Of a DNA stretch of 64,000 bases, positions 40,813 through 51,678 are shown piece by piece. Each line of letters begins with the position of its first letter. Position 1 is the stretch's first letter. The stretch spans positions 186,001-250,000 of the forward strand of contig JAHBBC010000035.1 of NCBI GenBank assembly GCA_019915015.1, given 5' to 3'. Made by a program: the position numbers and the translations under genes. The notes beneath the pieces are model-generated. The model searched no databases. It was given only the letters and a program-made list of their open reading frames with translations, and was not told where the DNA came from. Source of the stretch: Auriscalpium vulgare (lineage: Eukaryota > Basidiomycota > Agaricomycetes > Russulales > Auriscalpiaceae).

Positions 40813-41945
40813 GTTCAAGAAAAAGTCCTGACTGCACTCTATACTATTCTGTGTTGTTAAACGCGGATCAGCCGCATTGCCAAAGCGTGGCACTATGTCT
40901 ACAGGCACCCGGACTTGTGATAGCGGAATAATATCCCCGATATATGATTGATCAGCTCTCTGAGCCCGCTTCAAGACGTACATACCGGTCGAGGCATCAG
41001 GCAGCGGCTGCCGTGTTCCAGCTTGGGAGCCCTGCGATACTATATCAAAGCGGCGTGCATATACAAGGTAGGGCAGGTGAGCGTGATCACTCGGGGAATT
41101 GACCAGCGGCTGAAGAATCATCCGTAGTTGGGCAATTGAGTGACCTACGCTGATGTGTCAGTTCCTTAGTATGAAACACGATGACCATGACTCACCTGCT
41201 ATGCCCTGGCCCGGCCACGCGACTGATGCATCGTCGATCACAAGCACGCTGTCATATCGTCCGTACCCCCAAGAAGCAGAAGGTGGTGACGCTTGAACAT
41301 TTTGAGGCCGCAACACATCTCCGCCATGGATGGAACGATTTTGTACACGTACGCTGTACCAAATCTCAACGTGTGAGAATGGTAATGTGGCGTTAGCACG
41401 CGCTGTTCGTCGGCCTCCGATTACATGCACCTGATGTGCACTGCTTCGACATCGTGTTAGGTAGTCCGCAAGGCTGGTGCGGAGATCCGGTAGATTGAAC
41501 AGGGCAGCAGCCTCATCGATAGAGATGCGAGAGATGGACGGCCGATAATTCAGATGGAAAGCAGTCGAAGTGGTACAGAATGTGCGCAGCAGACCAGTGG
41601 GCTGAGTGGACTGGAGGAAGTAGTTGCAGGGCTGGCCACGAGTCTGTGCAGGAGCCGAGGGCGCATCTGAGTTTGTGCGCGATGCGTCGGGGTCCGAGTT
41701 ATCATCGGCATCTTCATCAGCATCTTCATCAGCATCTTCATCGGCATCTTCACCTTCCGTGGCCGGTGAGTTGGTCGACAGAGCGGTTGCCAGATCGAAC
41801 ATGCGACACTTCTCTTCGCGGTCCAGGTAGCGGCAAATCTGTGAGTCGAAGTCTCGATGATTGCTGGCACGGAAGGGGTCCTTGACGAGAGAGATGTGGC
41901 TGCGCTCCGTCACGTCTGCAGACCACTGGATAGGCGCTCCCATCT
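40813..41945 (-). pseudogene. Plavaka transposase 2, C-terminal part
   Basis: C-terminal portion of the gene that begins at 51678 and is split by the 41946-49647 element. It starts at the insertion point with MGAPIQWSADVTERSHISLV, then DSQICRYLDREEKCRMFDLA. An acidic repeat (DADE)n follows, encoded by a 12-bp microsatellite near 41703-41750. Next come ISIDEAAALFNLPDLRTSLA and EIWYSVRVQNRSIHGGDV, and after an intron the terminal exon with VYARRFDIVSQGSQ and FFLNKL. The last residues run into the dispersed repeat at 40812. Confidence 0.85.
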
Positions 41946-42133
41946 AGGCTGGTAGGACTCGGAGTGGCGTGGCAGGGATCTCCGCAAATCTGAAAAGAAG
42001 CACAAAATAATCATGTGACCTGTCCGGCATGTCCGGCACGCCACAGGCGCCGTGCGCGTGGGTTTGACCAGTTCCCCGCGTCGTCTGCCCTTGTTCTCGT
42101 CGTCTACCTCCTCCCTGTCTTTTTACTGCACCT

Positions 42134-45116
42134 ATGTCAGACCCGAGCAATCAAAACAATAGTTCTGTACCCCACCGCTCTCCTGCAACGCCAAATGCAC
42201 GCCCGTTCCCGGCTTTCCTGCGTGCAGACGACACTTTTCAGCCGCAACTCGCTCGCACCGGACGTTCATACGGATGGGCCACTGCAAGTCGCCCGAGAGC
42301 GGCCACCTACCAATCTCATCCCGCTCACAACAATTCGATTGAACATCCCATTACACCTGGTGTGTCCCGAGCACAATACCCCGCCTACAGCGACCCGCAT
42401 GCTGCCGGTCTGCGTCGTATGCCATCACTGCCCGACAACACTCGCTACCATCCATATCCCCCCTCAATCTCTTCTGCATCCACGGCAACTAGCTACTGGC
42501 AAACCACAACGCCCAGCACATCATTTTCTGATAGTAATTCGGCCCCAAACACACTTCTCTCGCCGTTTCATGACCTCTCTCATGCTCCCACTGCTGCAGC
42601 GCCCGCGGCACGTTCGAACATCGTTCCCGCTTCATCCGGCGAGCGGAATATCTCCTGGGACGGACGCTGCTGCCGTGCGCTAGATGATCTCGAGTCTGCC
42701 CATCGCTCAGGCGGCGGCCTGAGCCGACTGCTCAAGCAAGTCTTTGGTCCCAAGGCTTCGGACACGGCAGCAGCTCACGCAGCACGCTTCTATTGCGTGG
42801 GCAACATGGAAGATGTCCTTGAACTCTGGTGGGAGAGCCCAGAGGGACATGCTGCAATCGAGAGATGGGTCCGTTCAAAGGGTGTACCGCTTGTCGGTGA
42901 CATTCTCGCCGACGAGATGGATGCGCTTGTGCCAAAATTTCGCAAGCGCATCGAGGACGTCACTCCGGGGTTCCTTCTCAACTTTACCCTGGAGGAAAAC
43001 ATTCAACCTCTCCTCGACGCGCACGCCCCGGTGACATGCAACGTTCTGATGCGTGCGCTTCAAACCCAGCGCGCTCTTGATGAGAATACGCACAAAGATG
43101 CGGGCATAGTTCGTCGGCACATCATCCGGTACTTCTGTATGAGGCTAATCATTTTGTTGCAGATCCTGCAGGTCCTTGTCGCGCAGGTGCTCAAGTTCCG
43201 GTCGCAGAATGCACAGCTCTTCGCGATTGTGCACGGACTTGCACAATGGGCCGCCGGGGTACCGCGACAGGCCATTGAAGTCTGCGCTAGGATCGGTCTT
43301 TCTATTGACTACACTTCCCTTGGTGTCTCGCGTCGAGCTATCGCTGCGGGCTGCATGGATCGGGCGCGAGTCATGTCACGCGGCCTACATATGTTCTGCT
43401 ACGACAATATGCAGACGCCGATGTCAACTCACGTTGAACAGCGCGAAGAGGCTCCCGAAAAGGTGCTGAAGGGCACTCTTCCCATGCTGTATAGTCTCCG
43501 CGGTGCCACCGAACAGGCATGCTTGCTCGATCCTAACATTGCGAATGCTCGCGACCCCGAACGGCTCATCACGCTCAACGACGACATTCGTCCCGACAAC
43601 AAAACCATTGCCGCTATCCGACTTCACCAGGCACAGCATCTCGTTGAGATCCTTCTATCCCACTGCCCTCACTTTGCATCATCGGCCAAGCGGCATCTTT
43701 CTTCATCTCTTCTTCAGCATGCTGCTGTGCGTCCGCCTCCATCTGGGTATAAGACACAGCAATTCCCATTGCGTGTCACCACTACCGATGAGAGCAGCAT
43801 CGAAGGCAACGAAGAGGTCTGGCGCGAGGCGTATGAAGACGAGAGTCAGCTTGGACTTGATATCAAAAAGGACGTAGGTCGGTTCGCTATACCCTCTATC
43901 AATGATCAGGCAACCAACGCCAATATCCGTGGTGCGCAAGGGCGTCGGCGACGTGACACAAACCCGTTCAATCGACTCGAAGTTGCTCAACTGGGTCCAG
44001 GGATGTTTCATGTCTTGCTGAACCTTTCAAATTATATCTTGGCATTGCATCGGGGAACAGAAGGTGACCATGGCAGCTTGGCAACATATATCAGCTTGCT
44101 CAACAAGAAGCGCATGGGGTCCGATCATCCTGACTACCATGACCTCAAGGTCATGCTCATGCAGGTCCTCTTCGGACTTTCTCTTCATGCTTGGGAGCTC
44201 GAATGTGGCCTCGAGAATCTTGCCGATTTTGCTTCTTCTGCGCCAGACACGCAAAAACTCCTTGATATTGCTTACAACATCATGGATAACTACATCGACA
44301 ACCCCATTTCATCCCTTGCTGGTGGTGCTCGAAGAAACACAGCTCTACTTTTCCGCGACCTTCTTAACTTCCACACCTTGCATGCTGGCGTCAAGTCGGG
44401 GGACTTTGGACGTGCCAAGCAACTGTTTGGCATGTACACTATCTGGTTCTGTGGTGCAGGTGCACGGAATTACTGCACTGAGTTCCTGCACTTCATTCAA
44501 AACATGCATAAGGTCTGGACGCCTGAATTTGCGTATGTCCACATTTCTTGTTTTCTTTCTGGGCTATACTCATGTCTATCTCAATAAAGGAATGTCATGC
44601 AAGACAATATGCTGATCAATATGAGTGGGCGAGACGGCCACTGGACGGGAGTGGATGAGAATATTGAGCACATGATTCATGTTCTCAAGGTATGACAGTT
44701 CTTAATTCTTGTGTACTGTCTGACTGAATGAATAGGACTTGTTTGCATCGCGCGGCATTCATGCTGAGTGGGATGACCATCTGCGCACAATATCTCCGGC
44801 TGCACATGTATTCCGCGCGCTGTTGAAGACCTTCCGTGCCACCCTTGGTGTCGGATACAAGGGCTCGACACACACCGAGGTTGATACGAGCTCATTGGTC
44901 CAGGAGGTTGCCCGAAAAGCCGCCGAATGGAAGCTGCTCCAAGATGATTCTGCGCATGCCAAGGTTCACAAGGAGACTGTTGATGCTCTTGCTGTTGGAA
45001 TGGATACTCTGATAAATGGTCGTCTTGCAGAATTCCACAAGAGGCGCACGATTTGGCTGGGGACAGGCATTTTGGTAAGAGAGGAGGATGATATTGAAGC
45101 ACCTCCGAGTCATTGA
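42134..45116 (+). CDS. DUF6589-domain protein, candidate transposase
   Basis: Main exon 42134 to about 44531, then 44592-44691 and 44736-45116. Roughly 950 residues with no disruption. The N-terminal 165 residues are Ser/Pro/Thr-rich and disordered; the rest is mostly helical. Features recalled from DUF6589, a domain of unknown function abundant in agaricomycetes, are all present. They include MFCYDNMQTPMSTHVEQRE (the usual DN motif), the GTLPMLYSLRG segment, RDLLNFHTLHAGVKSGDFGR, GAGARNYCTEFLHFIQNM, and an end segment with NMSGRDGHWTGVDENIEHMI. A short in-frame intron may exist around 43132-43165. There is no zinc finger and no obvious DDE or HUH triad. Because it is the only non-helicase gene in a demonstrably mobile element, it is the candidate transposase. 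That role is inference. Confidence 0.8.
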
Positions 45117-45132
45117 CAAGTCAACAAATCGA

Positions 45133-48100
45133 TTACTCATGGCGGTGTCGTTTGCGTGGCAACTCTCGTACAATATTATCCTGATCACGCATTCGTTTCG
45201 CTCCCGAGCCCTCTTCCTCACCCTCGCCCTCACCCTCGTCCTCTGACTCTGCTTCACTCTCCTCAGACTCATCCCCTGCGTCATTTGTTACCGTTGCCTT
45301 CCCCTTCCCCTTCACCGCCTTCGCTGCCTTCACCTCGGCCTTCTCCTTGTCATACTTAGCTTTCCATTCCTTCTTGTTCATCCTGACGTCGAATTCGAAT
45401 TGTAGTATCACCGTGACAACGTCGTCTGCGTACAGGTCGCGCCACTCGAGTGTCTCTTGAAGCACGTCCATCAGCTGCTTGACATCTCGAAGCTGAGAGT
45501 AGGGCACGCGGACGAGCTTGGCGATGCTGGCGTCAGGCAAGACATAGCAGTCGGGGATGCCGCGGGGAGTCTTCGCCTTGCGCGACGCAGAGCGGAGCCA
45601 CGCTCGGAGAGCATCAGTAAGGTAGGCACGCTGAAAGACTGGACGATACGATTTCCGCGGCGTCTTCTCTTTCGCGGGCTTGGGATCGTCGCGACGCATG
45701 AAGGGCCCTGAGAAGACATCTTCGACTTTGAACGCAGCATCGGGCTTGGGGTGGCTGTGGCAGCAGCCATGCTCTGCGCTGAACGTAAGAGCTACATGCG
45801 GCAAGTACAACACTGGGGAGTAGTTTAGTGCACTATGTCCCTACAGTTGTAACAAGTGGGTGGTGTCATAGGCAGGCAGAATAGTGAAGTGCAAGTATAG
45901 GACAGTATAGTGCACTATAGTGCATATACCAGTACTATAGTGTCCTTGGATGCACTATAGTAGTAGCATGACTGTAAGGACCATTGTATTTTTGCACCAA
46001 TATAATGGGCTTTCAAAATGTCATAAATAATGGTGTAGATGCACAGGTGGAGCTGCAATATAGAGGTAATTTAGCAGAATATATCTGGTTAATGGTAGAT
46101 AGCAGTAGGGCAATCACTGTCCAATGGATCCCATGGGTTTATGTACTATAGTGAATCCATAATATATTACAGAAATGCTGGGATATATGCACCTTCTCTC
46201 CATTCAAATGAGCTCTATAAATTCGGATAATATTATAGCATGTGGCTTAGTAGAGTGCATATGTGATCTGAATTTACCAGAATACAGGGGGACATTTCTG
46301 AGGAGTTGTGCAGTGCACACTGTATCAGATATTCATCTACTATAGTGATATTATACTCTTTAAAGCTTTCTTAATTTGTTATGGGATGACTGGACATTCA
46401 CAAATCATGAAGAAAAAGGTGAGCATATGTACCATGCATGCCACTGCTGTCTGAATTTATCATAATATTTAAGACTAATGGGAAGCCGCACCAATGCATA
46501 TATACTTATACACTATAGTGTCATTTAGCTTGCTTCTATCCTCAAACTTTTTCAGCACTGAATAGCTCCTCAATACTTGGGGAAACAAATCCTTAGATAT
46601 TCCAGAGCACTATTACACCATGCCCCTTCCATCCCTGAAAGTTTTGTGTTCTTGCATGCAATTGGTATATAGTACCATACTTCTGATCCTTTGATACAGC
46701 CTAAATGATCCATATGTCCCTGTCCCATCTATCCAAGCATATGTGTGAACTGAAATGATTATTTATTTTTCAATGAGCCATGATCCATGAAGCTTTCTTG
46801 AGCTCAAGCTCATCCTCTGTAAAAGAAATAGCCATTTATATCCATATGCCTGATTATAAACTGGATCACCCTGGGACAAGGATAACTCAGACATCACAGG
46901 CTGTATGAGAGTGGAAGTACAGCACTTTCTGCCAACTCTAGATAGAATTCCCATATTTTGAGCATTGGGTGGGGCATGGTCTGTGAATGCTCTATAATAT
47001 CTGTGGATTATATTGACCAAGTACTGGAGAGCTATTGAACACATCATATGCTTTTGTGGCCAACCAATTAGATCACCACTATAGTGCACAAATCTATATG
47101 CCTTGGTGTGGCTCACCAATAGCTTCAGATATTATGATAAATTCAGACAGCAGTGGCATGTGTAGTACATATGCTCACCTTTTTTGTCATGATTTATGAA
47201 TGCCCAGTCATCCCATAACAAATTAAGAAAGCTTTAAAGAGTATAACATCACTACAGTAGATGAATATCTGATACAGCGCGCACTGCACAACTCCTCAGA
47301 ACTGACCCGCTATATTCTGGTAAATTCAGGTCACATATGCACTCTACTAAGCCACATGCTGTAATATTGTCCGAATTTATAGAGCTTATTTGAATGGAGA
47401 GAAGGTGCATATATCCCAGCATTTCTGTAATATATTATGGATTCACTATAGTACATAAACCCATGGGATCCATTGGACAGTGATTGCCCTACTGCTCTCT
47501 ACCATTAACCAGATATATTCTGCTAAATTACCTCTATATTGCAGCTCCACCTGTGCACCTACACCATTATTTATAACATTTTCAAAGCCCATTATATTGG
47601 TGCAAAAATACAATGGTCCTTATAGTCATGCTACTACTAAAGTGCATCCAAGGACACCATAGTACTGATATATGCACTATAGTGCCCTATACTTGCACTT
47701 CACTATCCTGCCTGCCTATAACACCACCCACTTGTTACAACTGTAGGGACATAGTGAATAAACTAAGCCCCACAGCCCGCAAGTAAGCTACGTGACACTG
47801 ACGCAACAACAGACACTTGCCGTCACTCGAGTTGTCATCGAGATAGCGAGCGAAGAACTCGCGCAGACAGCCCTTGGTCTTCACGAGATCCTTCATTTCG
47901 TCTGACGTCCGGATCTCCTTTGCCGTCGGCTTCTTCGATGGTGTCAAGGCCCAAGACTCGTACATGAGCAGCGAGATGCCGAAGAGTCCAGGGAGTCGAT
48001 TGTTGCGCCCGAAGCGTTGCAGAAGATCGATAAGCCACTGGCAGAGCCCGTACTGTATGACAAACTCGATGTTGCTCAGGTTGAGGCCCTGCCAATGTAG

Positions 48101-49354
48101 GTGTAAGTGGGCTGCTCCGAGCTCTCGAACAAACAAACCTGTGCGAAAGCACTGCTCGCAAATAAGATCCGGCAGGACCTGCCCGATTTGAATGCCTCGA
48201 ACGTGTTGTCAAGGTACTCTCGAGACATCCCAGCATGGTAGAATCGGACGAAGCCGCGCTCCAGAAGGGGAGCCTGCATTGGACCGGGCAGCAGAGCGAC
48301 GAGCAAGTTGGGCGCAATACCGATGAGGTCGGAGTCGTCCATGAAGATGAGTGTCTTCCGAGTCTGCGAGATGAGCTGTGCTGGTGTCATCGTCGAGAGA
48401 ACCGAGTCCGTTGGGAAGAGCATTCGGAGATTGCGAAAGTCTCTGAGGCTCCGGCCGTACAGCGGATATGTAGCGTAGACTTGATTCGGCCGGTTCAGAC
48501 TCGTCTTGATAATGACAGGGTCGCGCAAGCGGCAGGACTTGTACCAGGATGTCACAATGTGCGGGGGCCCAGTCGCAGTGAGTAGCATGATCGGCGTGGC
48601 GGCTGGCAGCTTGATACAGAGCTCCCAGATGGATGCCCACATGGGCCGGAATGCAGGAGCGTCGCCGAACGGAAGACCCCAGATATACGTGAAGTGCGCC
48701 TCGTCGACGAAGAGGCGCGCGATGTTGCTGACGAAGCGTCGGTTCTCTGAGATCGCCAAGAGTCGGCCAAAGCGAGTGAGATGCCCATGGTATCGTGCGC
48801 GTGTCTGCTCGGGGCTTGCAAAGATGACGTTGTACAAACTTGCACGAATGTTCTATGCATACACACTCGTATTTAGCGCAGTTCTGACGATGGATTTTGC
48901 GCGACAAACCTTCCAGACATCCTCATTGTACCGCATGTCGTGGTTAATGGCGACGGCGTGTATGCCTCCGAATTCGTTGAGCTGCTCTACCTACACGTGC
49001 ATGTAGCACTTTCAGCAAGTAAAGAAGACATAACGGTGCATATATTCGCACCATAGACTCCTGGAGACGTAGCAGGGGCGACATGATCAGGATAGTCTTG
49101 CCGGGATTCAGCAGTGCGGCCGCGACAACTTGCATGGTCTTCCCAGATCCTGTGCCGGCGAGACAGACTGTGTCGTGGCCCTCTTGCATGCTGACAATAG
49201 CCCTGAGCTGATCCTCGCGCAGACAGATCCTGCCATGTGTCGAAGAGTAGACGAGGGCGTAGGCGAGAAGGGCCGTGTCCGAGGCAGACTCCGAGAGCTT
49301 GTCCAGTTCTGAGAGAAAGAGAAATGAAAGAGGGGGAATAGGAAGTATGTCCAT
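45133..49354 (-). pseudogene. RecQ-like DNA helicase, split by a foldback element
   Basis: Superfamily 2 helicase of RecQ type. Met at 49354 (MDILPIPPLSFLFLSE). Motifs in order: LREDQLRAIVSMQEGHDTV (motif 0), LAGTGSGKT (Walker A), LIMSPLLRLQ (Ia), FASPEQ, FVDEAHF (DEAH, motif II), LLTATGPPH (III), TLIFMDDSDLI (IV), GLNLSNIEFVIQYGL (V) and QRFGRNNR (VI, usually QRxGRxGR). At least four exons. The coding sequence is cut by the insertion 45808-47778. Taking that out with one target copy joins ..CHVA to YLPHVALTFSAEH in frame. The C-terminal part then continues to 45133, with Cys/His residues (CCHSHPKP), a Lys-rich coil and an acidic Ser/Glu tail ending in RKRHRHE. As it stands the gene would make only the helicase core. 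Confidence 0.85.
45808..47778. mobile_element. Foldback element with about 660-bp TIRs
   Basis: AT-rich 1971-bp insertion in the helicase gene. The long inverted arms are about 45808-46470 and 47123-47778. They match closely, for example CACTATGTCCCTACAGTTGT at 45830 against its complement ending near 47755. The target duplication is GCAAGTA (45801-45807 and 47779-47785), 7 bp exact or 8 with one mismatch, as for hAT-type elements. The unique centre of about 650 bp has no ORF. The words TGCACTATAGTGCA recur in both arms. Non-autonomous. Confidence 0.88.
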
Positions 49355-49657
49355 TAGAATCACAGTGCTCTAGTTGAGGGGTATATGCATGTAGTTGGGT
49401 ATACGAGGGAGAGAGATGAACGCGCCAGCGGACGACGAGCAGAGCAGAGCGACGCGACACGGCGACCTGGCACCCACGGACTCGGCGCCTTTGACATGCC
49501 GTCGATGCCGGACAGGTCACATGATTTTTTTGTGCTTCTTTTCAGATCTGCGGAGATCCCTGCCACGCCACTCCGAGTTCTACCAGTCTGTATATCTAAA
49601 GTACCCAGCTCGCTCGTCACTGCGATATACAGCTGGTCACCAGTCTAGCTCCCATCT

Positions 49658-51678
49658 GTCGGATGCTCGGCGCGACGTTCTGCATCAGCTCGAGCTTGGG
49701 GATGTGCCAGTTGTCCAAGAGCTTTCCTCCCTTCCCACGACAGGCCCCAAGCTCCAAGATCACCTGCTTGTGAGTATGGAACTCCCTAAGCACTGCTGTG
49801 ATGCGGTCCACTGCCTTGTCATGGATCTCCTTTGCCTGAGCGAGATATCAAAGGTCCATAAGTGAGCGGATACAGATGACAAAGGCGGGACTGGCCGCAC
49901 CAGCGACACAGGCTACTAGGTATCGTTGGATGTCGCGGTGCTCGCGTCCGGTAACCTGCTTGAGGTGGGAAATGCCTTCCGCAAAGTGACGAAACCCGAC
50001 ACGCTGTGGTAACACAGCAAAGCGGAAATCAATCTCCTTATCGCCCAACAATGTCCGGCACCATTTAATGTCGTGGTCCCAGCATTCCTTGTGCCACTGA
50101 TGCAGCGGCTCGGGCGTCAGGAAAGAAGCCGGGTCGGAAAGGGGCCAATCGCGCCAGAAAGGTTGATGGACCCCATTAAAGCGGCGTGCTTTCGCGTGCT
50201 TGACGTAGTGGGAGAGGTCCCAGGGGTCCGGAGCGACTGATAGGAGGGCGTCGAGCTGAGCGAGAGTGGTAGAGGCGGTGCGCAGCTCGTGTTGGAAAGG
50301 GTCGCCGAATTGCTTGAACATGGAGACAGTGATGGCCGAGCTCTTCCCGCCCACGCATGAAAGCAGTTGTGCCTCCGGATTGTCGACGATGTAGGCGGCT
50401 AGCGGCGTGAAACAAAACCTGTTGTAGCCGAGAGGATCGGCCATCATGCGGCCATAACGCGCAGCCGCCTTCAACGGCTTGCAGACAATGTCAAGGCAGT
50501 GATGTAAGAGGCGACTCTCCAGAACTCCGCGCAAGGTCTTGTGGCAGATAAACTCCGGACATGGAAGGAGGGCAAGAAGTAGAATGGCATTACGCGATGA
50601 CTTCATCCGGACATCCATATGTAGGTTCGCAAGTGAGATGAGGAGGGGATGGGCGACCCGATTACCCGTGCCGGAAGTGAGGTTTGTCTTGTCCGACGAC
50701 AGGACGGTCCCTAGCAACGTTGCGCCCTCCGGCAGAGAAGACTTCAAGGAAACATTAGTTACACAGCATTGAGGAAAAGACATTGGGCCTTACCTGCACT
50801 GCCCAAGCTCGATCGCCTGTCATCCATTCGCTGTAGACACGCACGGCATGTTCGGCAGTGGTGTACAGCTGTACAGGATCAAAGTTGATGCTACTCTCGA
50901 ATAGCGGACTTCCAAAGAGGAACTCGAGACAGTCAATGCCGTCGCGATAGAACAGCTGTATCGGCCGCTTTGTCGGATAGCCTTCGATTGAGACCCCTTG
51001 GGATTTCCACGCTGGGCCGGATGGTAAGATCTCCACCTTGCCACGGAGCTCCTTTGCTGTGCGAAAAGATGTTGACAACCCTGAGATCTGCAAATGTAAT
51101 CAGTAATTGAACCAAGAGAGAGCGCCAAAATTACTCACGATGGGGAGGCGTAAAAATTCGTCGATATCCGCATTGCTGAGACGAGAGCGGACGAGAAAAG
51201 ATCCAAGCTCCCAGTCCGCCTGACAGGAAAAGGGATAGAACGGGTTTGTAAGCCGTTCAGAGGAATACTGGTCGTCATTGAATTTATCCATGAAGGTTTT
51301 CGCATGCCCATAGGTACGGGAGGGGCTCGGATGGCGGACGTGGGGAGATGGCGGCGCAGTGGGAGCGGAAGTGTCAGAATGAGTGGTCGATGGATGGGTT
51401 ATCGGCATATGGGAGGTTCGGAATAAGGGGAATGTAGCGGTAGCTTCCATTGGCAATGGTGGCGTATCGAGTACCGGCATCTCCGACTCGTCTTGAAGGA
51501 GAGGAAGAGGGCCTGAAACGTCGCAGACCTCAGTGTCCACAGCTGCGGCCCTGCTAACCACACCGCGCGCCAACTCGGCCGAGAGCCAACTCGCGCACTT
51601 CGAGAACTTATTTGTAAGATGCAGAGATACACGTCACTGGTCCTCAAAAATCCTGCGGCAGTTTGGACATGCCACCAT
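49658..51678 (-). pseudogene. Plavaka transposase 2, N-terminal part
   Basis: Starts at 51678 with a short Cys-containing motif (MVACPNCRRIFEDQ), then after a small intron a disordered region. The conserved blocks are DDQYSSERLTNPFYPFSCQA, RPIQLFYRDGIDCLEFLFGS, TVLSSDKTNLTSGTGNRVAH, LHQWHKECWDHDIKWCRTLL and GISHLKQVTGREHRDIQRYL, followed by KLELMQNVAPSIRQM up to the insertion. The arrangement parallels the gene at 324-3756 but the sequence is clearly divergent, a different subfamily. A stop (TGA, 49850-49848) falls where related proteins have Arg in the RYLAQA block, consistent with CGA-to-TGA at a CpG. So the gene carries a nonsense mutation in addition to the 7.7-kb insertion. Confidence 0.85.

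Follow-up and report, generated by a model that had tools for sequence, protein, structure and literature searches.

What kind of transposon has interrupted a Plavaka-type gene in the mushroom-forming fungus Auriscalpium vulgare, and which of its two genes mobilizes it? The insertion lies in a 64,000-nucleotide stretch of contig JAHBBC010000035.1 (positions 186,001 to 250,000; the window, whose own numbering is used here unless a contig is named). An earlier note, made from the letters of the window alone, proposed that a DUF6589 protein and a RecQ-like helicase together define a new transposon type. Here, we analyzed the gene content of the region by profile-scanning eight protein pieces and searched the whole assembly (51.6 Mb, 96 contigs) for related loci. 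We conclude that the window element is very probably an AcademH-type DNA transposon with DUF6589 as its transposase and the helicase as its standard second gene, a reading preferred over a new superfamily because helicase type, duplication length, and host group coincide with those described for AcademH.

The window element is a real DNA transposon with terminal inverted repeats (TIRs). It spans positions 41945 to 49647 (7703 bp; ends TAGGCTGGT and TAGACTGGT) between two copies of GCTCCCATC, at 41936 to 41944 and 49648 to 49656. The inverted ends, put at ~110 bp in the earlier note, were borne out as 118-nt arms (41946 to 42063 and 49472 to 49589) that are 89% complementary. The left arm and a terminal T make up the left end (41945 to 42063, plus strand), a short type without a subterminal hairpin. 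The right arm (minus strand) is nonterminal, lying 58 bp inward of the terminus, and the outer 58-bp block was also found in the C10 and C19 copies. Flanking direct repeats had also been noted and are present, but the length given there, 10 bp, is best read as 9 bp. The base next to the 9-bp repeat (T) matches too, as does one adjacent base in several other copies; the ends account for such bases equally well. We read 9 bp in the window because both ends then start with TAG, as in other copies, and 9 bp is shared by every copy that carries a duplication. When the element and one repeat were deleted, a single 325-amino-acid open frame ran across the joint, in agreement with the restored Plavaka frame described in the earlier note. 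The flanks of this minus-strand gene matched the corresponding profiles (Plavaka transposase domain, upstream part, 49848 to 50789, 8.7e-68; DUF6830, downstream part, 41158 to 41943, 1.1e-47).

Profile matches confirmed both genes that the earlier note had placed inside the element, DUF6589 on the plus strand and the convergent RecQ-like helicase on the minus strand. The main open frame of the probable transposase (42134 to 44587, plus strand; ATG at 42134) matched the DUF6589 profile PF20231 with an E value of 4.2e-62, and a later exon piece of the same gene (44736 to 45116, plus strand) matched the end of that profile (E = 0.00042, below the curated cutoff). The helicase matched DEAD (7.8e-09), recQ_fam (1.8e-10, below the curated cutoff), and, below their cutoffs, RecQ_Zn_bind and Helicase_C; its best relative of solved structure is the Bloom syndrome helicase (5.3e-05).

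Across the genome, 43 PF20231 matches were merged by hand, by position, into 24 DUF6589 loci, which include the duplicated pair C14/C49 and the equal-score pair C40/C43 (C denotes a contig). Twelve of these loci were read with their flanks, eight of them being the window element or chosen for a nearby helicase. Both ends could be read at 10 loci, and every one of these shows inverted ends and a 9-bp duplication; the other two were read in part (right end only for the C19 second copy, one side for C49). Besides that of the window, the duplications are GTGCGCGGC (C2a), GTCGAGACC (C7), GGCTGGCGC (C51), CGGTAAAGT (C20), GGAATCTGC/GGAATTTGC with one mismatch (C6), GGTATCTTC (C14), GACTTTCTG (C23b), TGGGTGCAC (C2b), and GGTTTGCGG (C19b). 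Within the 12 loci (two of them partly read), no known transposase was seen inside coinciding ends, nor did DUF6589 genes lie mostly outside TIR elements. These associations strongly support the DUF6589 protein as the probable transposase of these elements, the role that had been ascribed to it from the window alone.

Two derivatives of 2.2 kb, C2b and C19b (ends CAGGCTCC), are 99.4% identical over 2,212 bp and occupy different sites with different duplications, and they are therefore direct evidence that these elements have moved. Some short copies match neither DUF6589 nor the helicase: C10 (907 bp) and C13 (140 bp) have exact duplications (CCAGTGACG and GAGACTACC, respectively), and C25 (384 bp) has matched ends. 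In total, 12 of the 13 two-ended insertions read carry a 9-bp duplication, one with a mismatch. The end pattern TAGRCYSGTNMCCAGNC occurred 48 times in the genome, compared to 3 times for the reversed control. At four single-end motif matches (C23:688k, C12:784k, C18:804k, and C37:252k), 401 bases each revealed no convincing second end or duplication.

The helicase was likewise frequent near DUF6589. We counted a helicase as related if it resembled that of the window or of the C14 element. By this definition, 13 of the 24 DUF6589 loci have a related helicase no more than 8 kb away, in keeping with the proposal that it is a regular partner; by rough estimate, with ~30 helicase places in 51.6 Mb, chance would pair well under one of the 24. 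The two genes are convergent at nine loci (the window, the C19 second copy, C2:1.78M, C7, C51, C23:299k, C38:42k, C2:1.55M, and C19:566k) and divergent at four (C14, C49, C20, and C6:25k). At four further loci (C6:1.72M, C37, C16, and C12), a convergent helicase lies 11 to 17 kb off.

AcademH is reportedly a lineage of the Academ superfamily, attributed to Kojima in 2020. In the papers cited here and below, AcademH is characterized by a helicase and duplications of 9 or 10 bp and AcademX by a nuclease and duplications of 3 or 4 bp (PMC10045372). Fungal Academ copies encode PF00270 (DEAD) and recQ_fam domains and are often annotated as host genes (PMC6416283), AcademH is present at low copy in Basidiomycota, Ascomycota, and Mucoromycota (PMC10799480), and an Academ profile has been published (cited in PMC8290104). 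By these descriptions, the window element shares with AcademH a helicase of the DEAD/RecQ kind, the duplication length, and fungal hosts, and no difference emerged; Plavaka and the gene content of the assembly themselves point to a mushroom-forming fungus. The idea of a new transposon type was not sustained, since AcademH elements with a helicase and 9- or 10-bp duplications (PMC10045372) and fungal Academ copies with DEAD and recQ_fam domains (PMC6416283) are already published. What is new, as far as our searches go, is the link between DUF6589 and AcademH and the subterminal hairpin described below, not the superfamily. In the literature searched (main texts; supplements lay outside the search), DUF6589 was not mentioned and PF20231 occurred only in an unrelated optics paper, so the assignment of DUF6589 as AcademH transposase appears to be unpublished within that scope. 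Pfam lists DUF6589 without a function; with good support, the family can be relabeled as the probable AcademH transposase, and its profile could then flag AcademH elements directly, instead of through a helicase that is easily mistaken for a host gene (PMC6416283).

Several observations weigh against this reading. The pairing with a helicase is not constant in the genome: at 7 of the 24 DUF6589 loci, no helicase match occurs up to 17 kb away, except that at C38:48.9k one lies 8.1 kb off, nearer to C38:42k. Two of the seven, C2:245k and C19:831k, are the 2.2-kb deletion derivatives described above. Conversely, a related helicase occurs at eight places where DUF6589 has no match within 10 kb (C23:140k, C5:1.78M, C73, C5:1.71M, three on C42, and C2:2.21M); weaker helicase matches in other places, some of them probably host genes, were excluded here. 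The short copy C25 lacks a duplication. A search of the PDB with the DUF6589 alignment returned no convincing solved structure (sole match, E = 1.9), other transposase profiles did not match DUF6589 proteins at E values up to 10, and an RNase H fold is something we only infer for this family. Finally, the comparison with AcademH was made with published trait descriptions, not with transposase sequence. This last point, together with the absence of a name for DUF6589 in Pfam and of any mention in the literature searched, would fit a new TIR superfamily, apart from Academ, that independently combined a DUF6589 transposase, a RecQ-like helicase, and 9-bp duplications. Such independent origin seems improbable, however, given that helicase type, duplication length, and fungal occurrence all coincide with published AcademH.

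An AcademH-like end was found beside the helicase at five of the eight places without DUF6589 (C23:139786, the three on C42, and C2:2.21M). On C42 and at C2:2.21M, this end lies ~380 bp from the first helicase match; these places perhaps represent a deletion derivative present several times or a family whose transposase went unrecognized. From C23:139786 onward, a short-type end precedes a helicase gene; neither a nearby DUF6589 match nor a second end was detected.

These helicase places, and the C10 and C13 copies that lack both genes yet share the ends and duplications, could also be expected if DUF6589 were a regular passenger and the mobilizer were the helicase or an enzyme supplied in trans by another element. 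We consider this very unlikely. Helicases alone are not known to make staggered cuts, and DUF6589 is present in each of the eight long elements read at both ends (seven had been chosen for their helicase). Moreover, DUF6589 conserves D and H residues in motifs resembling those of DDE enzymes. An aspartate in a (G/N)Dxx(T/S) motif (D245, in window-piece numbering) and a histidine (H280) are invariant in 14 of 14 DUF6589 proteins aligned, and a further aspartate, within a YDN-like motif, occurs in 11 of the 12 rows extending over this motif (FNN in C4; the other 6 of the 18 rows do not include it). Candidates for the third acidic residue are RD near position 396 and E near 437, neither of which is universal. 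A Pfam search of DUF6589 revealed nothing credible apart from DUF6589 itself, and scans of viral collections with two single DUF6589 proteins as queries confirmed no relative. A structure model predicted from a single sequence, with no alignment, had a mean pLDDT of 37.9, too poor for fold comparison.

Membership in the other families considered was rejected on duplication length, signature, profile, or nuclease tests (KolobokH, MuDR, KDZ, Plavaka, and AcademX). KolobokH duplicates a 4-bp TTAA target, which the 9-bp duplications of varied sequence in window-type elements do not match. The C/DxxH signature found between the second D and last E of KolobokH, MuDR, and hAT transposases is absent from 18 of 18 DUF6589 rows, where G, E, or Q occupies the position three residues ahead of the invariant H. 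That the element belongs to a different described superfamily that has a helicase or long TIRs is therefore a negligible prospect: KolobokH, a lineage restricted to fungi, likewise has a RecQ helicase (PMC9587614) and MuDR/IS256 elements make duplications of 4 to 10 bp (PMC10045372), but no other transposase profile matched at the threshold given above, and the window-type helicase is a separate gene on the opposite strand, whereas KolobokH carries its helicase downstream in the transposase gene along with the C/DxxH signature. AcademX shares the superfamily by name but differs in having a nuclease and 3- to 4-bp duplications where the window element has a helicase and 9 bp; the genome has five matches to XPG_I, the AcademX-type nuclease, all of them on contigs that lack DUF6589 loci. 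Plavaka and KDZ elements are TIR transposons too and abound in a mushroom-forming fungus (PMC8290104); Plavaka, however, has 2- to 3-bp duplications and TGT or CATCA ends (PMC12730594), in contrast to 9 bp and a TAG start, and none of the 14 DUF6589 proteins matched a Plavaka or KDZ profile at E values up to 10.

Returning to the AcademH-type element, its ends offer a possible clue to the helicase. For 24 ends, the score of the best inverted repeat within the outermost 130 nt was compared with the scores from 100 swap shuffles of the same end; at 17 ends, the observed stem score was reached by at most 1 of 100 shuffles. At the right end of the window element (49582 to 49637, minus strand; arms 49624 to 49637 and 49582 to 49596), the score exceeded all 100 shuffles. 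At the 17 ends, the outer arm starts at nt 6 to 12 and the inner arm ends at nt 57 to 87; the seven ends without a hairpin are win_lo, C10_hi, C2a_lo, C23:139.8k, C2b_hi, C19b_hi, and C23b_hi. Every element scored at both ends (11 of 11) has at least one hairpin end, and C7, C51, C20, C6, and C14 have two, although the ends are not fully independent of one another (win_hi, C10_lo, and C19_hi form one family, C2b and C19b another, and C20, C6, and C14 share types). In a control with 600 segments of 130 bases drawn at random from the window, 5 gave a stem score of at least 10.5 at the same position; two of the 17 hairpin ends fall below this value (C10_lo, 9.5; C2b_lo, 9.0). Stem sequences vary between families, and the closely related ends C20_hi and C6_lo differ at one stem pair, where C:G stands in place of T:A and both arms are changed. 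The side of the hairpin is also variable (helicase side in the window, DUF6589 side in C2a). When 20 whole ends were folded as DNA, 13 had a z score of −1.6 or lower, one of which (C23b_hi) had failed the stem test. Against a functional hairpin stand the weak z scores of the window hairpin end (−1.01) and C10_lo (−0.02), and palindromes can persist through repair rather than use. No hairpin on AcademH ends was found in the accessible portions of the literature searched; the feature is new as far as those searches go.

We tentatively suggest, while considering it the less probable outcome, that a working end hairpin explains why the element carries its own helicase: the RecQ-like helicase would recognize or resolve the extruded hairpin and so give DUF6589 access to the end, one hairpin end would be enough, and recombination between the AGACTGG repeats on either side of the hairpin would create the short, hairpin-less end. 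If so, subterminal hairpins would provide a concrete, testable reason for the presence of a RecQ-like helicase in a transposon. C20 and C6 carry their two end types in opposite arrangement with respect to the genes, which suggests that recombination between TIRs flips the interior or exchanges the ends.

From the ends, the 9-bp duplications, the empty site, the gene pairing, and the near-identical derivatives at two sites, we infer a cut-and-paste mode for this AcademH-type family. DUF6589, as the catalyst, would pair both TAGRCYSG ends, cut them, and join them to target strands staggered by 9 bp, and repair of the gaps would leave the 9-bp duplication. The RecQ-like helicase may open or remodel DNA at the ends, possibly the hairpin, and short derivatives without either gene would presumably be mobilized in trans.

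The window copy itself carries a damaged helicase gene (45133 to 49369, minus strand; pieces 48944 to 49369, 48076 to 48852, 47735 to 48208, and 45133 to 45840). The last of these pieces has no family match and was assigned to the helicase by position and by the C19 copy. Interrupting the gene is a nested foldback of 1.97 kb (45808 to 47778), flanked by a GCAAGTA duplication and absent from the earlier note; its arms measure 617 nt (93%) and 84 nt (95%). The C19 sister copy has the corresponding empty site, the pieces being 98 to 99% identical and one 86-bp piece 100% identical. Since the foldback breaks the helicase gene, the window copy is probably no longer autonomous. A related foldback lies near C2:251-256k.

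Two further candidates were rejected. The C14/C49 pair is not proof of movement, as its 99.9% identity over 9,455 bp extends ~3.5 kb past the right end of the element; the two are one locus, duplicated or doubly assembled. A 104-kb gap in the C19 sister copy (C19:164967-268962) was considered as a giant element, but its ends are 440-bp direct repeats, 98.6% identical, and this insert, which has a 6-bp duplication, probably consists of nested long terminal repeat retrotransposons. Elsewhere, the C51 copy (C51:91034-96755) sits in a tandem array with a unit of ~110 bp, and C20 has duplicated helicase fragments outside the element. DUF3435, the captain-type tyrosine recombinase, had two matches, both on C5 (C5:168012-168605 and C5:326672-327040), and DNA_pol_B_2 had a single match, at C60:65454-66395, with five internal stop codons.

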